Source: Rhodobacter sp. SGA-6-6 (lineage in GTDB: Bacteria > Pseudomonadota > Alphaproteobacteria > Rhodobacterales > Rhodobacteraceae). From it: a stretch of 64,000 bases of DNA. The notes under the pieces were generated by a model. It did no database searches. It was not told where the DNA came from and worked only from the letters and a program-made list of their open reading frames with translations. The position numbers were made by a program, and so were the translations under genes. Location: assembly GCF_011043545.1 (NCBI RefSeq), contig NZ_JAAKGP010000001.1, positions 248,001 to 312,000 on the forward strand, read 5' to 3'. This document shows, in pieces, positions 174 to 62,510 of this stretch (position 1 is the first letter of the stretch; each line of letters opens with the position of its first letter).

Positions 174-231
174 GGGCGGGTTATCCTGCTGCTGCCGAGC
201 TTTCCCTGGGGCAGGAAAACCGGCTCTCCTC

Positions 232-440
232 GGGCGGGAACAGGCGAGGCACTGCCTCGCCCCCGCCCGTGCGGACGGTCTCACTCGGAAACGGTAGCGG
301 CACATAACCCCGAGAGGCCAGCGCCCGACCCGGCGGGCGAGAAGCGCCCGCCGAGGGCGGGGCGGGCGCTGGCCAGGACTTATGGTCCCGGCCGAACAAG
401 GTGAACCGTTGCGTGATGGCGAAGGCGATGGCCTTCGCCA
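232..440 (+). repeat. Dispersed structured element, copy 1
   Basis: First of six near-identical elements of about 210 bp. It fills most of the gene-free gap between the transglycosylase end and lolA, which converge here. Hairpins in order: GGCGAGGCA/TGCCTCGCC; a long outer stem GGCCAGCGCCCG/CGGGCGCTGGCC enclosing GGCGGGCG/CGCCCGCC with an AGAAG loop; GGCC-A-GGAC/GTCC-C-GGCC; and TGGCGAAGGC/GCCTTCGCCA at the 3' end. The third stem carries a C-G to A-T compensatory change relative to the other copies. Confidence 0.9.
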
Positions 441-10140: not shown

Positions 10141-10217
10141 AGCGGCGGGGTGAACCCCGCCCTACACATGACCATCGGGTTCGGCGACAATCGTAGGGCG
10201 GGGTTCACCCCGCCGCT
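10141..10217. repeat. REPIN-like pair of inverted palindromic repeats
   Basis: Two copies of a short palindromic repeat with core GGCGGGGTTCACCCCGCC face each other: 10141-10165 and 10193-10217 are perfect reverse complements over 25 nt, separated by 27 nt. Each half is itself a hairpin, so the whole can fold either as two small hairpins or one long one. A third single copy lies at 10459-10480. The pattern matches REPIN elements: paired REPs lying in a gap at gene ends. Confidence 0.85.
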
Positions 10218-10232: not shown

Positions 10233-10440
10233 CGGGCGGGAACAGGCGAGGCATTGCCTCGCCTCGCCCCTGCGCAGCGATTCAACCGGAGACGGATCAG
10301 CACATAAACCCGAGAGGCCAGCGCCCGACCCGGCGGGCGAGAAGCGCCCGCCGGGGGCGGGGCGGGCGCTGGCCGGGCCTTGAGGGCCCGGCCGGTCTGG
10401 TTGACATGGTGCGCGGTGGCGAAGGCACGCGCCTTCGCCA
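10233..10440 (+). repeat. Dispersed structured element, copy 2
   Basis: Same orientation and hairpin order as the other five copies. Here the third stem is perfect: GGCCGGGCC/GGCCCGGCC with a TTGAG loop. The final hairpin is TGGCGAAGGC-ACGC-GCCTTCGCCA. It is bracketed by short palindromic repeats (10141-10217 and 10459-10480). No other content is seen in the 10140-10500 gap, which separates two convergent genes. Confidence 0.9.
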
Positions 10441-10458: not shown

Positions 10459-10480
10459 GGCGGGGTGAACCCCGCCCTAC
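10459..10480. repeat. Short palindromic repeat, single copy
   Basis: Same 22-nt family as the pair at 10141-10217 (core GGCGGGGTGAACCCCGCC), placed just downstream of dispersed element copy 2 and before the 3' end of the Trm112-like gene. Confidence 0.8.
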
Positions 10481-13119: not shown

Positions 13120-13968
13120 ATGAGTTTCATGTCGGGGCCGAAACGGCCGAGGTTCGAGATCGAGGCCGGGCTGGAAAATCCCCTGGCCGTCGCCGTCTCG
13201 GCGGCGGACCGCGAGGTGCTGGCGATGGTGCGGGCGGCGCTGTCGCTGCGGCGGATGCGGCTGGCCTTCCAGCCGGCGGTCTATGCGGCGGACCCGTCGA
13301 TCATCGGCTTCTACGAAGGCTATATCCGGCTTCTCGACCCGCAGGACCGGGTGATCCCCGCGCGCGACTTCATGGAGGTGGCCGAGACGCAGGAACTGGG
13401 GCGCGAGATCGACGTGGCCGCGCTGCAGCTGGGGCTGATCGCCCTGCAGAAGAACCCGGGCATCCGGGTGGCGGTGAACATGTCGGCGCGCTCGGTCGGC
13501 TACCGGAAATGGGTGCAGGTGCTGCGGCAGGCGCTGAAGACCCATCCCGGCCTCGGGCGCGGGCTGATCCTGGAGATCGGCGAGGCTTCGGCGATGCAGA
13601 TGCCCGACGTGCTGGTCCCCTTCATGAAGGAGCTGCGCGAGGAGGGGATCGCCTTCACGCTGGACGATTTCGGCGCCGGGGCGACATCGCTGCGGCTGCT
13701 GTCGGAATTCCGCTTCGACATCGCCAAGCTGGACGGAGGGTTCGTCCGCGGGATCGAGCGGGATGCGGGCAACCAGCCGATCCTGCGCGCCGCCATCGCC
13801 ATGGCGCGGGAGTTCGGCATGTTCCTCGTGGCCGAGGCGGTGGAGACCGCGGCCGAGGCCAACTGGCTGCGCGAGCAGGGGGTGGGATGTCTGCAAGGCT
13901 ATCTGTTCGGCGCGCCGGAGGTGACGCCGGATTTCAGCCGCTTCCGCAGGGGGCGGCAGGAGGGATAA
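13120..13968 (+). CDS. EAL domain protein (c-di-GMP phosphodiesterase family)
   Basis: 282 aa, a single EAL domain with no GGDEF or sensor domain attached. The signature is altered: EGY replaces EAL (in FYEGYIRLLDP), and LEIGEAS stands for LEITE. The metal-binding Asp pair is kept (LDDFGAGATSL), as are AKLDGGFV (Lys), VAEAVET and LQGYLFGAPE. NMSARS gives the conserved Asn. It could be active, weakly active or a c-di-GMP-binding effector. ATG 13120 is the first start in frame after the divergent tag promoter region. Confidence 0.83.
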   Translation: MSFMSGPKRPRFEIEAGLENPLAVAVSAADREVLAMVRAALSLRRMRLAFQPAVYAADPSIIGFYEGYIRLLDPQDRVIPARDFMEVAETQELGREIDVAALQLGLIALQKNPGIRVAVNMSARSVGYRKWVQVLRQALKTHPGLGRGLILEIGEASAMQMPDVLVPFMKELREEGIAFTLDDFGAGATSLRLLSEFRFDIAKLDGGFVRGIERDAGNQPILRAAIAMAREFGMFLVAEAVETAAEANWLREQGVGCLQGYLFGAPEVTPDFSRFRRGRQEG

Positions 13969-13973
13969 TGGCC

Positions 13974-14033
13974 GGCGGGGTGGACCCCGTCCTATGGGAT
14001 GACCCGGCATCGTAGGGCGGGGTTCACCCCGCC
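13974..14033. repeat. REPIN-like pair of short palindromic repeats
   Basis: A degenerate copy at 13974-13995 and a consensus copy at 14012-14033 (core GGCGGGGTTCACCCCGCC) face each other in opposite orientation, just after the EAL gene. Same family as 10141-10217 and, as there, immediately upstream of a copy of the large structured element. Confidence 0.75.
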
Positions 14034-14048
14034 ATTCCTTCGATATCC

Positions 14049-14260
14049 GCGGGCGGGATAAGGCGAGGCGCTGCCTCGCCCCCGCCCGTGCGCGGCGGTT
14101 GCTCCCGGAGACGGTGGCTGCACAAGACCCCGAGAGGCCAGCGCCCGACCCGGCGGGCGAGAAGCGCCCGCGAGGGCGGGGCGGGCGCTGGCCGGGCCTT
14201 TGGGGCCCGGCCGGGAAGGTTGCAACCGTTCCGCCATGGCGAAGGCACGCGCCTTCGCCA
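14049..14260 (+). repeat. Dispersed structured element, copy 3
   Basis: Same orientation as the other copies, in the gap between the EAL gene and phaA. First hairpin GGCGAGGCG/TGCCTCGCC keeps pairing with a G-U. The inner stem has lost a C (GCGCCCGCG instead of GCGCCCGCC), but the outer 12-bp stem is perfect. The remaining about 150 bp up to phaA must contain the phaA promoter. Confidence 0.88.
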
Positions 14261-29438: not shown

Positions 29439-29650
29439 GCGGGCGGGAACAGGCGAGGCACTGCCTCGCCCCCGCCCGTGCAGATGGATTCACCCGAAGA
29501 CGGTGGTCAGGAGAAACCCCGAGAGGCCAGCGCCCGACCGGGCGGGCGAGAAGCGCCCGCCAGGGGGCGGGCGGGCGCTGGCCGGGCCTTTGGGGCCCGG
29601 CCGGTCCCGGTTGATCGGTTGCGCTGTGGCGAAGGCAATGGCCTTCGCCA
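29439..29650 (+). repeat. Dispersed structured element, copy 4
   Basis: Same orientation as the others, here in the only site between two tandem minus-strand genes (mobA upstream, a lipoprotein gene ending 20 nt to the right). Outer stem GGCCAGCGCCCG/CGGGCGCTGGCC is perfect; the last hairpin has loop AATG. The 29342-29669 gap holds nothing else I can recognise except the mobA promoter. Confidence 0.9.
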
Positions 29651-33895: not shown

Positions 33896-34846
33896 ATGGA
33901 CCGCACCGAGACCCTGCCCGCCGACGATGCCGGCATCGCCCGCGCGGCGGCGCTGCTGCGCGAGGGGCGGCTGGTCGCCTTCCCGACCGAGACGGTCTAC
34001 GGCCTCGGCGGCGATGCCACCGACGACCGGGCGGTGGCGCGGATCTTCGAGGCCAAGGGGCGGCCGCGCTTCAACCCGCTGATCGTGCACCTGCCGGGGC
34101 TGGAGGAGGCCGAGGTGGTCGCCGTCTTCGACCATCGGGCGCGGGCGGTGGCCGGGGCGTTCTGGCCCGGGCCGCTGACGCTGGTGCTGCCCCTGCGCGA
34201 GGGCGCGGGGATTTCGCCGCTGGTCACCGCGGGCCTGCCGACGGTGGCGATAAGGGTGCCGGCGCATCCGGTGGCGCGGGCGCTGTTGCGTGCCGCGGGG
34301 AGGCCGGTGGCGGCGCCTTCCGCCAACCCTTCGGGCCGGGTGTCGCCGACGCGGGCGGCGCATGTGCTGGACGGGCTGGCCGGGCGGATCGCTGCGGTGG
34401 TGGACGGCGGCGCCTGCGCGGTGGGGGTGGAGTCGACGATCCTCGGGCTGGACGGGGAGCCGCGGCTGCTGCGCCCCGGCGGCATTCCGGCCGAGGCGCT
34501 GGAGGCCGCCTTGGGGCAGCCCCTGACCACCGGCGGCAGCGCGGCGAAGCCGAATGCGCCGGGCCAGCTCGCCTCGCATTACGCGCCGGGGGCAATGGTG
34601 CGGCTGAATGCGCGGGCGGCGGAGACCGGGGAGATTCTGGTCGGCTTCGGCCCGGTGAAGGGCGATCTGACGCTTTCGCCCGGCGGCGATCTGGTCGAGG
34701 CGGCGGCCAACCTGTTCCACATCCTGCGCGAGGCCGATGCGCTGGCGGGCCCGCAGGGCCGCATCGCCTTCGCCCCCATCCCCGGCCACGGCCTCGGCCG
34801 CGCGATCAACGACAGGCTGAGCCGGGCGGCGGCCCCGCGGGGGTAA
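33896..34846 (+). CDS. L-threonylcarbamoyladenylate synthase (Sua5 type)
   Basis: 316 aa. Makes the threonylcarbamoyl-AMP used for the t6A modification of tRNAs. The YrdC domain shows FPTETVYGLGGDA, KGRPRFNPL and PSANPSGRVSPTRA; the extra C-terminal Sua5 domain (from about residue 210, containing APGQLASHYAPGA) makes it Sua5 rather than the short TsaC. Divergent from the acyl-CoA dehydrogenase. Confidence 0.93.
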   Translation: MDRTETLPADDAGIARAAALLREGRLVAFPTETVYGLGGDATDDRAVARIFEAKGRPRFNPLIVHLPGLEEAEVVAVFDHRARAVAGAFWPGPLTLVLPLREGAGISPLVTAGLPTVAIRVPAHPVARALLRAAGRPVAAPSANPSGRVSPTRAAHVLDGLAGRIAAVVDGGACAVGVESTILGLDGEPRLLRPGGIPAEALEAALGQPLTTGGSAAKPNAPGQLASHYAPGAMVRLNARAAETGEILVGFGPVKGDLTLSPGGDLVEAAANLFHILREADALAGPQGRIAFAPIPGHGLGRAINDRLSRAAAPRG

Positions 34847-34872: not shown

Positions 34873-35084
34873 CCGGGCGGGATCAGGCGAGGCACTGCCT
34901 CGCCCCCGCCCGTGCGCGGCGGGTCAACCGGAGACGGCAGTCACGAGAACCCCGGGAGGCCAGCGCCCGACCCGGCGGGCGAGAAGCGCCTGGCCCAAGG
35001 GCGGGGCGGGCGCTGGCCGGGCCTTGAGGGCCCGGCCGGACAAGGGGAGCCGTTGCACGGTGGCGAAGGCACGCGGCTTCGCCA
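34873..35084 (+). repeat. Dispersed structured element, copy 5
   Basis: Same orientation, in the gap between sua5 and mscL. Most divergent copy: the inner stem has changed (GCGCCTGGCCC in place of GCGCCCGCC) and the final hairpin has one mismatch (GGCTTCGCCA), but the outer 12-bp stem and first hairpin are intact. It leaves about 170 bp before mscL. Confidence 0.88.
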
Positions 35085-40675: not shown

Positions 40676-41668
40676 ATGACACTTTCGCATTCGATGCTGG
40701 CGATGGAGATCGTCGCCCCCGGCGGGCCGGACGTGCTGAAACCCTGCTCGATGCCGGTGCCGGTGCCGGGCCATGGCCAGATCGTGATCCGGGTGGCCTT
40801 TGCCGGGGTGAACCGCCCCGACGCCCTGCAACGCGCCGGGGCCTATGCGCCGCCGCCCGACGCCTCGCCGCTGCCGGGGCTGGAATGTTCCGGCACGGTG
40901 GTGGAATGCGGGCCGGGGGTGACGCGCTGGTCGATCGGCGACAAGGTCTGCGCCCTGCTGCCGGGCGGCGGCTATGCCGAATATGCGGTGACGCACGAAA
41001 GCCACGCCCTGCCGCTGCCCGACGGGATGTCGCTGAAGGAGGCCGCCTGCCTGCCGGAGACCTGCTTCACCGTCTGGTCCAACGTGGTGATGCGCGGGCG
41101 GCTGGAGGCGGGGCAGAAGCTCTTGGTCCATGGCGGCACCAGCGGCATCGGCACCACGGCAATCCAGATCGCCAAGGCGCTCGGCGCAAGGGTCTTCGCC
41201 ACCGCGGGGTCGGACGACAAGGTGAAGTTCTGCAAGGATCTGGGCGCCGAGGAGGCCTGGAACTACCGCGACCGCGACTGGTCGCAACTGATGGCGCAGG
41301 CCGGCGGGGCGGATGTGATCCTCGACATGGTGGGCGGGTCCTATATCCCGCGCAACATCAAGGCGCTGGCCAATGACGGCCGGTTGGTGCAGATCGCCTT
41401 CCTGCAAGGCGCGAAGGCCGAGCTGAACTTCGCCGAGGTGATGACCCGGCGGCTGACCATCACCGGCTCGACCCTGCGGCCGCAGAGCGAGCAGGCCAAG
41501 GCCCGGATCGCCGCGCAGGTGGAGGCGCAGGTCTGGCCGATGATCGCCCGCGGCGCGCTGAAGGTGGTGCTGGACAGCGAATTCGCCCTGACCGAGGCCC
41601 CGCAGGCGCATTGGCGGATCGAATCCTCCGGCCATATCGGCAAGATCGTGCTGAAGGTGGAGGAATAG
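40676..41668 (+). CDS. NAD(P)H-quinone oxidoreductase (PIG3/QOR family)
   Basis: 330 aa medium-chain dehydrogenase without structural zinc. N-terminal GroES-like domain (VAFAGVNRPDALQRAGAYAPPP), then Rossmann LVHGGTSGIGTTAIQIAKALGARVFATAGSDDKV. This sequence is typical of the TP53I3/PIG3-like quinone reductase subgroup. A second ATG (40694) could be used. Cotranscribed with the coq9 gene 10 nt upstream. Confidence 0.88.
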   Translation: MTLSHSMLAMEIVAPGGPDVLKPCSMPVPVPGHGQIVIRVAFAGVNRPDALQRAGAYAPPPDASPLPGLECSGTVVECGPGVTRWSIGDKVCALLPGGGYAEYAVTHESHALPLPDGMSLKEAACLPETCFTVWSNVVMRGRLEAGQKLLVHGGTSGIGTTAIQIAKALGARVFATAGSDDKVKFCKDLGAEEAWNYRDRDWSQLMAQAGGADVILDMVGGSYIPRNIKALANDGRLVQIAFLQGAKAELNFAEVMTRRLTITGSTLRPQSEQAKARIAAQVEAQVWPMIARGALKVVLDSEFALTEAPQAHWRIESSGHIGKIVLKVEE

Positions 41669-41712: not shown

Positions 41713-41923
41713 GCGGGCGGGAGAAGGCGAGGCACTGCCTCGCCCCTGCCCGTGCGGACGGGTTCAACCGGAGACCTGTCGGCACGAGACCGGATGAGGC
41801 CAGCGCCCGACCCGGCGGGCGAGAAGCGCCCGCCGAGGGCGGGGCGGGCGCTGGCCGGGCCTTGGGGGCCCGGCCGGTCCCGGTTGATCCGTTACGCCAT
41901 GGCGAAGGCACGCGCCTTCGCCA
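41713..41923 (+). repeat. Dispersed structured element, copy 6
   Basis: Same orientation; between the ends of the quinone reductase gene and the convergent RNase T2 gene. All four hairpin groups are intact, including the 12-bp outer stem and the final TGGCGAAGGC-ACGC-GCCTTCGCCA. Confidence 0.9.
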
Positions 41924-41949: not shown

Positions 41950-42585
41950 CTACCGCACCGCCTCCAACACCGCGTCCTGCAGCTTGCAGTCGCGGATCGT
42001 GTCGGCGCCGCAGCGGCGGGGCTCCAGGTCTTTCGTCAGGCACAACCGGACCTCCTGGATCATCCCGTCCTGGCAGGTGACGGTGATCTGGTCGCGCTTC
42101 AGCCCGGGGTTCGACTCGAGGAACGCCCCCTCGATCACCGAGGCCGGAACCTCCAGCGTCTTCGACATCCGGGCGAAGACCGGCGGGATGACGATGCCCT
42201 CATAAGCCCGCCGGGCGGTGCGGAAATAGTCCTCCGGCGCCAGGCCCGAACAGCGGCCGTGCTTCTTCCACTGGTAGAAGGCCAGCCCTGCGCCGCCCAT
42301 CACATCGGCCATCGCCGCGGTCTCGCCCCTTGTCGGATCGCGCTCGGCCGTGCGGCAATACTGCGGCCAGCCCCTTTCGTGCTGCGGCCAGAGGCCGTGC
42401 AGCACGAAGGTCAGCCCCCTGCCCCGGTTGCATTGCGGATCGTCGCGGGCATCGCCCTCCAGCGCGCACCAGGCCGAGGACCAGGACAGCGACAGGACAT
42501 AATAGTCGAAGTCCCCCGCCCGCTCGCCATCGGCCTGCACCGGCCCGGCCAGCAGCGCCGCGAGGAACGCGAAAGCCCAACGCAT
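41950..42585 (-). CDS. Secreted ribonuclease T2
   Basis: 211 aa. A signal peptide (MRWAFAFLAALLAGPVQA) precedes an RNase T2 domain; catalytic blocks FVLHGLWPQ (His) and FYQWKKHGRC (Lys and His) are both present, and disulphide Cys residues are conserved. Cleaves single-stranded RNA to 2',3'-cyclic then 3'-phosphates, probably in the periplasm to use external RNA as nutrient. Divergent from trcR. Confidence 0.93.
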   Translation of the reverse strand: MRWAFAFLAALLAGPVQADGERAGDFDYYVLSLSWSSAWCALEGDARDDPQCNRGRGLTFVLHGLWPQHERGWPQYCRTAERDPTRGETAAMADVMGGAGLAFYQWKKHGRCSGLAPEDYFRTARRAYEGIVIPPVFARMSKTLEVPASVIEGAFLESNPGLKRDQITVTCQDGMIQEVRLCLTKDLEPRRCGADTIRDCKLQDAVLEAVR

Positions 42586-61832: not shown

Positions 61833-62489
61833 ATGGGACTGGCGGAAATCGCGGCCCGGATGCGGGCGGCCGAAGCGGCGGCGGGGCGGGCGGAAGGCTC
61901 GGTCCGGCTGATCGCGGTGTCGAAGGTGCAGCCGGCGGAGCGGGTGGAGGCGGTGCTGGACGCCGGCCATCGCCTGTTCGGCGAGAACTACGTGCAGGAG
62001 GCGGCCGGGAAGTGGCCGGCCTGGAAGGCGCGGTTCCCGGGGGTGGAGCTGCACATGATCGGCCCCTTGCAGACCAACAAGGCCAAGGTGGCGGTGGAAC
62101 TGTTCGACGTCCTCCATACCGTCGACCGGCCCTCGCTGGCCGAGAAGCTGGCCCGGCTGGCCGATTCCCGCGGGGTCTCGCCGCAGTTGTTCGTGCAGGT
62201 GAACACCGGGGAGGAGCCGCAGAAGGCCGGCGTGCTGCCCGCCGACGCCGATGCCTTCGTGGCCGCCTGCCGCGGCATGGGCCTGCCGGTGGTTGGCCTG
62301 ATGTGCATCCCGCCCGAGGGCGAGGACTCCGCCCCCCATTTCGCCCTGCTGAAAGCGATGGCCGAGCGGAACGGGTTGACCGGCCTGTCGATGGGGATGA
62401 GCGGGGATTTCGAAAGCGCCATCGCCCATGGCGCGACGCATGTCCGGGTGGGCAGCGCCATCTTCGGGGAACGGGATTACGCCCGGTAG
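61833..62489 (+). CDS. YggS-family pyridoxal phosphate homeostasis protein
   Basis: 218 aa. PLP-binding Lys in VSKVQPAERV (residue about 30); HRLFGENYVQEAAGKW and SMGMSGDFESAIAHGATHVRVGSAIFG complete the COG0325 pattern. Controls free PLP. Its stop TAG (62487-62489) lies inside a palindromic repeat. Confidence 0.95.
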   Translation: MGLAEIAARMRAAEAAAGRAEGSVRLIAVSKVQPAERVEAVLDAGHRLFGENYVQEAAGKWPAWKARFPGVELHMIGPLQTNKAKVAVELFDVLHTVDRPSLAEKLARLADSRGVSPQLFVQVNTGEEPQKAGVLPADADAFVAACRGMGLPVVGLMCIPPEGEDSAPHFALLKAMAERNGLTGLSMGMSGDFESAIAHGATHVRVGSAIFGERDYAR

Positions 62490-62510
62490 GGCGGGGTTCA
62501 CCCCGCCTAC
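62486..62510. repeat. Palindromic repeat shared by two convergent gene ends
   Basis: Same family as 10459-10480. The outer GTAG/CTAC arms provide TAG stops on both strands: 62487-62489 for YggS (+) and 62507-62509 for the L,D-transpeptidase (-). Confidence 0.8.

Follow-up and report, generated by a model that had tools for sequence, protein, structure and literature searches.

The draft genome of Rhodobacter sp. SGA-6-6 contains an intergenic element of about 211 bp, composed of four hairpins and present in an estimated 190 copies, whose orientation follows replication (the direction of replication itself being inferred from KOPS, skew, and gene strand), whose copies sit at the 3' ends of genes, and whose stems are nearly invariant among copies with strongly drifted linkers. 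We tentatively explain these properties, with somewhat less than even confidence, by fork-coupled dispersal of an old non-autonomous REP/MITE-like element followed by selection on its fold. A sequence-only reading of the window (the whole 64-kb stretch of DNA analyzed here, which was given because of its copies) had described a structured repeat of 210 bp; the replication polarity, the preference for convergent gaps, and the frozen stems with drifting linkers are new beyond that reading.

All six copies proposed in the window were found on the + strand, each within 1-2 nt of where the sequence-only reading had placed it, with sizes of 208-211 bp and sharp ends (Table 1). Alignment of 56 seed copies from the same genome yielded a unit of ~211 bp that starts with CGGGCGGGAnnAGGCGAGGCA and ends with GCCTTCGCCA, and the information content of this alignment fell steeply beyond both ends. 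In the sequence read, hairpin 1 occurred 134 times inside the element and once outside, and hairpin 4 occurred 140 times inside and never outside; because these two hairpins are nearly confined to the unit, we regard it as one element rather than a chance run of palindromes. The order of the hairpins was as previously described, with hairpin 1 being larger than had been noted (consensus CGGGCGGG/CCCGCCCG around GGCGAGGCA/TGCCTCGCC). In copy 2, hairpin 3 overlaps the 3' arm of hairpin 2 by its first four bases, which makes the full hairpin 3 stem an alternative pairing; among the copies, this hairpin exhibited the paired variants GGGCC/GGCCC, GGGTG/CACCC, and GGGAC/GTCCC. When copy 2 was folded as DNA, the written strand lay 8.6 s.d. 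below dinucleotide shuffles and its complement lay 8.0 s.d. below them.

Table 1. Copies of the element, hairpins of the reported copy, and GTAG-tagged palindromes in the window
Feature	Position	Strand	Description
Copy 1	231..440	+	Profile match of 187 bits; flanked by a + reading frame ending at 173 and by a - gene (504-1139) of the LolA family (Pfam)
Copy 2 (reported copy)	10233..10440	+	Convergent gap
Hairpin 1 of copy 2	10234..10269	+	GGGCG/CGCCC closes GGCGAGGC/GCCTCGCC; from sequence and fold
Hairpin 2 (core) of copy 2	10316..10374	+	Outer GGCCAGCGCCCG/CGGGCGCTGGCC around GGCGGGCG-AGAAG-CGCCCGCC; homologous to the family-wide core
Hairpin 3 of copy 2	10371..10393	+	GGCCGGGCC/GGCCCGGCC; from sequence and fold
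Hairpin 4 of copy 2	10417..10440	+	TGGCGAAGGC/GCCTTCGCCA; right boundary
Copy 3	14050..14260	+	Between tandem + genes: EAL-domain gene (ends at 13968) and thiolase (from 14377)
Copy 4	29440..29650	+	Between two - genes, hence antisense to both
Copy 5	34874..35084	+	After a + gene (33896-34846) of the Sua5/YrdC family
Copy 6	41714..41923	+	Convergent gap, flanked by genes for a zinc-binding dehydrogenase (ends at 41668) and a ribonuclease T2 (41950-42585, -)
GTAG-tagged palindrome GTAGGGCGGGGTTCACCCCGCC	10193..10214	+	Adjoins copy 2
GTAG palindrome, same type	10144..10165	-	Near copy 2
GTAG palindrome, same type	10459..10480	-	Near copy 2
GTAG palindrome GTAGGGCGGGGTTCACCCCGCC	14012..14033	+	Left of copy 3
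GTAG palindrome GTAGGGCGGGGTTCACCCCGCC	62486..62507	+	In window

The sequence-only reading had proposed a genome-wide count and a covariance-model search of related genomes, and both were made. A gapped exact core pattern had 141 matches in the whole genome (a 4.29-Mb draft in 67 contigs), with none for the reversed control. A profile search of the ~2.0 Mb that were read (~47% of the genome, in stretches partly picked for known copies) revealed 165 distinct copies, and the strict core pattern was satisfied by 122 of 164 copies, from which we estimate ~190 copies in the whole genome. The claimed density of one copy per 10 kb held locally, with 27 copies in 264 kb, and failed in some sampled stretches that were empty (e.g., 580-620 and 640-674 kb of contig C1 and five stretches of contig C44 below 130 kb); the first 200 kb of C1 were read gap-free, but after the core pattern had placed copies there. 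For one protein of this genome, the nearest named relative returned was Xinfangfangia sp. CPCC 101601 (90% identity).

The full element is specific to this lineage, in which it has expanded. A covariance model (R1) had at least 150 matches in the own genome (all 150 candidates scored) compared to three in one congener (G011), one in a second (G010), and none in ten others, among 150 candidates scored for each; BLAST gave short matches to the core in a few additional congeners. No element was present in the loci of 80 relatives around the orthologue of the gene beside copy 6, a set that includes contigs of metagenome-assembled genomes and loci cut by contig ends. The full-length copy in G011 (L009) is a single gene away from the orthologue of a copy-bordering gene in the own genome (L275, C23:174 kb), the two proteins being 87% identical; the other flank differs, and a shared old insertion is possible.

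An ~85-nt core, consisting of the central hairpin and its neighbor, reaches further. It had 2-25 matches in each of ten genomes from other genera, which were chosen because earlier searches had matched them, and a strict core pattern matched 15 of 149 genomes of the family, the own genome included. Among 27 cores, 95.6% of the cells pair, the cells with both sides changed numbered 52 versus 16.1 in shuffled alignments and 1-9 with slid partners, and the covariation score was 0.251 versus 0.094; these cell counts are inflated by relatedness, and in the same 27 cores the pairs with a double change (7 versus 6.2) and the further pair types (19 versus 17.0) did not exceed the shuffles. Taken together, the alignments provide good evidence that the core fold matters across genera, and such compensatory change counters the objection, named in the sequence-only reading, that the structure might reflect nothing beyond shared ancestry. 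The claim of an unnamed family also stood: Rfam gave no match at the gathering score in the window, with only sub-threshold matches in five loci at relaxed thresholds, BLAST searches of plasmid and phage collections gave no match, and the element was not found in the literature as far as one collection and the chosen terms reach. The core shared across the family thus seems to represent a structured element of the Rhodobacteraceae that has no name as yet. Low-scoring core matches of ~141-143 nt with a long insert in the hairpin, seen in G015 (C1) and G021 (C3), perhaps represent a second repeat family.

KOPS and other polar chromosome motifs display a genome-wide strand polarity. As a marker of the replication strand we used the KOPS motif GGGNAGGG, counted with the elements masked; in the 67-contig draft, the leading strand was read from KOPS with support from skew and gene strand. 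GC skew alone was too noisy per 20 kb and was positive in the window, so KOPS was used instead. The KOPS strand was the G-richer one and carried ~60% of the gene bases (elements masked). On each of nine contigs KOPS leaned opposite to the elements, most weakly on C1 (82:50). Across 16 contigs, 133 of 165 copies opposed the majority KOPS strand of their contig, and 15 of the contigs agreed by majority, some of them holding 1-5 copies. When the KOPS sites within 20 kb of each copy were used, 130 copies opposed them, 32 agreed, and 3 tied. The window itself is balanced in KOPS (11:12) with a positive GC skew, so its strand call rests on the remainder of C1. The bias was alike in the three score tertiles (43/55, 44/55, and 46/55) and weaker in variant B, a core with GGGGCGGGCGGGCGC, than in the others (29/43 versus 104/122, p = 0.015).

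Gene orientation was considered as the cause of this polarity and ruled out, since the share of opposing copies was equal in all gap types: 55/68 in convergent, 68/83 in tandem, and 8/10 in divergent gaps. Transcription made a smaller contribution. In tandem gaps, with C44 left out, 42 of 45 copies beside leading-strand genes opposed KOPS versus 22 of 30 beside lagging-strand genes (Fisher p = 0.02), and a logistic fit on the same basis (n = 144) gave coefficients of -1.80 (SE 0.25) for replication and -0.80 (SE 0.35) for transcription. Targeting of exposed single strands would be expected to produce such additive effects of replication and transcription. PMC5371812 describes transposons whose orientation is biased with respect to replication. 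Contig C44 is the exception, with 8 of its 18 copies opposite to the KOPS strand and 10 on it, and with 6 of 7 elements on that strand between 280 and 330 kb, where KOPS itself does not flip (C44 stays at 108:18). This anomaly could be due to a zone of varying fork direction near the terminus; a search for a dif-like site to place the terminus gave only a poor match, on C2. The cores of two other genera exhibited no overall polarity signal, with a ratio of 11 of 20 copies (7/9 in G085 and 4/11 in G021), five of the 20 resting on three or fewer KOPS.

With genes called by our own codon-bias script rather than a standard gene finder, none of the 161 copies with called neighbors lay inside a gene (overlaps of up to 60 nt being allowed); 68 were in convergent, 83 in tandem, and 10 in divergent gaps. 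Among gaps of at least 30 bp in the first 200 kb of C1 and the window, occupancy by the element was 14/26 for convergent, 12/75 for tandem, and 0/34 for divergent ones. The corresponding numbers for gaps of at least 60 bp in all long stretches, which were partly selected for copies, were 64/140, 79/468, and 10/236. The copies therefore sit at gene 3' ends. According to PMC3733652, REP elements likewise prefer convergent and unidirectional gaps at gene 3' ends, so the gap preference alone does not indicate a special function.

Whether high-copy intergenic palindromes simply persist or are selected by the host is an old question, and this genome allows a direct comparison of stems with linkers within the same copies. 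The stems were 25 times less changed. Among 164 copies, 131 of 16302 cells (0.8%) were off consensus in the 100 paired columns versus 3594 of 17893 (20%) in the 110 unpaired columns; 85 copies had perfect consensus stems, and only one copy had more than four stem changes. The constraint was equal in wrong-way copies (0.72%) and in every type of gap, and so is not tied to direction or gene arrangement. In the unpaired columns, the distance of each copy to its nearest neighbor had a minimum of 8.3% and a median of 15.6%, versus 19.4% after column shuffling. The copies are related in a nearly star-like fashion, those read include no recent duplicates, and the minimum of 8.3% gives no sign of recent jumping. 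Weak profile matches (15-140 bits) were few, comprising 20 rows, of which two were full-length copies, three were one opposite-strand self-match in three loci, one was cut by the end of its locus, and the rest were partial and not all classified; decayed copies are thus rare at this sensitivity. The copies have neither the decayed stems expected of an old neutral family nor the near-identical pairs expected of a young one, and the simplest reading is that selection maintains the fold of most copies, with rapid removal of broken copies as the alternative.

The mispairs within the stems point to one strand. On the written strand, G-T mispairs exceeded A-C mispairs (60 versus 21 cells, p = 1.7e-5); the excess arose in hairpins 1 and 2, the counts in hairpins 3 and 4 being 5 versus 8. 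The conserved unpaired columns contained 206 G>A and 142 C>T changes, counts that are not normalized for base content. In the family core there were 20 G-U cells without the column pair 26-43, which is often U-G, and 37 with it, versus 4 of the A-C type. These sequence comparisons suggest that it is the fold of the written strand that matters, either as RNA or as single-stranded DNA. The earlier proposal of an RNA-level element receives indirect support from the G-T excess on the written strand, in which hairpins 3 and 4 do not share. Of 164 copies folded as DNA, 147 had a written strand more stable than the complementary one (means of -85.4 versus -81.9 kcal/mol). By the KOPS reading, the written strand of most copies lies off the lagging-strand template, which speaks against a plain IS608-like peel-and-paste mechanism. 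Within the own genome, the only pairs that covaried were a single one in hairpin 2 and the distal ones in hairpin 3. A long-range stem between linkers, seen in folds of single sequences, was rejected for lack of covariation support among the 164 copies. A G-quadruplex motif on the written strand occurred in 19 of 165 copies and is not general.

No mobilizing enzyme came to light in the searches made. The Y1 transposase profile (Y1_Tnp, PF01797) had no match in the own genome or in 12 congeners, whereas the control search matched 5 of 14 control genomes, including E. coli. The reverse transcriptase profile (RVT_1, PF00078) identified a single protein in the own genome (L319:1174-2469 (-), on contig C13), which resembles DRT2: its best match was Drt2 at 382 bits (cut-off 390), compared to 66 bits for group II reverse transcriptases (cut-off 300), and its 3.6-kb locus holds no element. 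A group II intron-derived element was rejected on this basis, there being no group II maturase reverse transcriptase. The statement in the sequence-only reading that the element lacks a transposase agrees with our scan of ten flanking proteins, which found none, and extends to those ten. Its "MITE-like" label, taken strictly, did not survive. Target-site duplications were sought as flank matches of 2-9 nt at offsets of 0-3 and were no commoner than in shuffled flank pairs, and neither a PF01797 nor a PF00078 partner was found. The element shares with MITEs a short, non-coding, dispersed, and gene-free nature, but we found neither target-site duplications nor terminal inverted repeats pairing within individual copies, nor a parent transposon. 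The flanks contain only a weak inverted consensus, and no copy split by a long insert was noticed in the part read; a variable closing stem formed by the flanks was rejected because the symmetric consensus came without complementarity in individual copies.

Other known systems are similarly close in some respects and distant in others. The IS200/IS605 elements (IS608), as described in PMC5371812 and PMC6006769, are alike in lacking target duplications, in their hairpins, and in an orientation that follows replication. The present element differs in that no Y1 transposase was found and no fixed tetranucleotide occurs at its ends, and its apparently selected strand lies, by the KOPS reading, off the lagging-strand template. 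REP, BIME, and REPIN sequences are likewise intergenic GC-rich palindromes of high copy number at gene 3' ends (PMC3733652). Their GTAG-tagged palindromes have counterparts beside a subset of the copies; their unit is 20-40 bp, whereas the element comprises four hairpins over 210 bp, is without GTAG near most copies and without a Y1 transposase found in the genome, and exhibits strong replication polarity and frozen stems. It resembles the REP/BIME/MITE group in its working, short of a demonstrated membership.

In the explanation that we favor, the ~85-nt core, which is low in copy number in other Rhodobacteraceae genera, would have been enlarged by hairpins 1 and 4, and the enlarged element would then have been dispersed to ~190 sites in this lineage. 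Insertion would have been coupled to the passage of replication forks and, to a lesser degree, to transcription, in the manner of elements that enter DNA while it is briefly single-stranded or that bind the sliding clamp. This coupling would have fixed the orientation, and the polarity would have been set by insertion rather than by selection. Copies would have survived only outside genes, mainly at gene 3' ends. Jumping would since have ended or become rare, the spread presumably being finished, and purifying selection would keep the fold of each copy by virtue of a host function, of which the simplest would be a structured gene end (terminator, 3'-end barrier, or topological or protein site).

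The strand polarity and the stem constraint together make an insertion bias testable against a selected direction. In the latter case, the fold of the written strand would act at the RNA level and in one direction, for example by blocking or terminating RNA polymerases that travel head-on against replication at the ends of genes. The stems frozen in nearly all copies, the G-T excess among written-strand mispairs with a similar G-U excess in the family core, the occupation of 14 of 26 convergent gaps, and the fact that a head-on gene would transcribe the written strand all agree with this proposal. It nevertheless seems unlikely to us, because the polarity was weakest at tandem lagging-strand genes, where a head-on effect should peak, and strongest at leading-strand genes, because neither the element consensus nor the flank logos contain the T-run of an intrinsic terminator after a hairpin, and because wrong-way copies are equally conserved. 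In its wider form, which we rate as fairly unlikely, the ~190 elements would constitute a one-way device at gene ends, with the written-strand fold selected and its direction relative to the fork functional; if true, such a device would serve transcription-replication traffic or chromosome polarity and would have been taken up by one lineage from an ancient hairpin family of the Rhodobacteraceae. Alternatively, insertion may have been random, with deletion or counterselection of those copies whose stabler strand fell on the lagging-strand template or the non-template strand. This orientation-dependent loss accommodates the additive replication and transcription effects and the placement, in most copies, of the stabler written strand on the less exposed strand, but we consider it quite unlikely given that stability was no lower in wrong-way copies (p = 0.65 for all copies, 0.53 with C44 left out) and that the difference between their strands was not clearly reduced (p = 0.36 and 0.066, respectively).

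The palindromes tagged with GTAG raise a further alternative, that of a REP/REPIN-type unit mobilized by a RAYT and consisting of a 212-bp body with flanking inverted GTAG palindromes. The exact palindrome occurs in 74 copies in the own genome, often as inverted pairs, compared to three in 12 congeners together, and in the sequence read (stretches partly chosen for elements) 30 of 42 lay within 80 bp of an element. GTAG was present 15-60 nt to the left of 42 of 164 copies, CTAC 8-55 nt to the right of 61, and both at 18. Most copies are thus without tags, the left and right flanks do not covary, 3 of the 67 copies examined first begin either no more than 10 nt from a stop codon or slightly before the called gene ends, and the own genome and the 12 congeners lack a detectable Y1 transposase, all of which make RAYT mobilization improbable; the tags may be remains of ancestral ends or mere neighbors in the same gaps. 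Highly improbable, in our view, is a polarity signal of the KOPS/AIMS type, selected as a mark of direction for segregation. The genome-wide ratio of 133:32 is comparable to the 601:154 counted for GGGNAGGG by contig majority, but the element is a 210-bp structured intergenic unit of the opposite sense, it is unpolarized on C44 (8 versus 10), where KOPS is strongly one-sided, and, unlike a pure polarity mark, it prefers gene ends and has no copy inside a called gene.

As a separate observation on strand-biased motifs in this genome, the octamer GCGCTGGG was strongly polar in the contigs read, with 49 occurrences on the KOPS-majority strand versus 4 on the other (overlaps removed). The contexts seen look coding, and the octamer could be a further chromosome-polarity motif or an avoided one.
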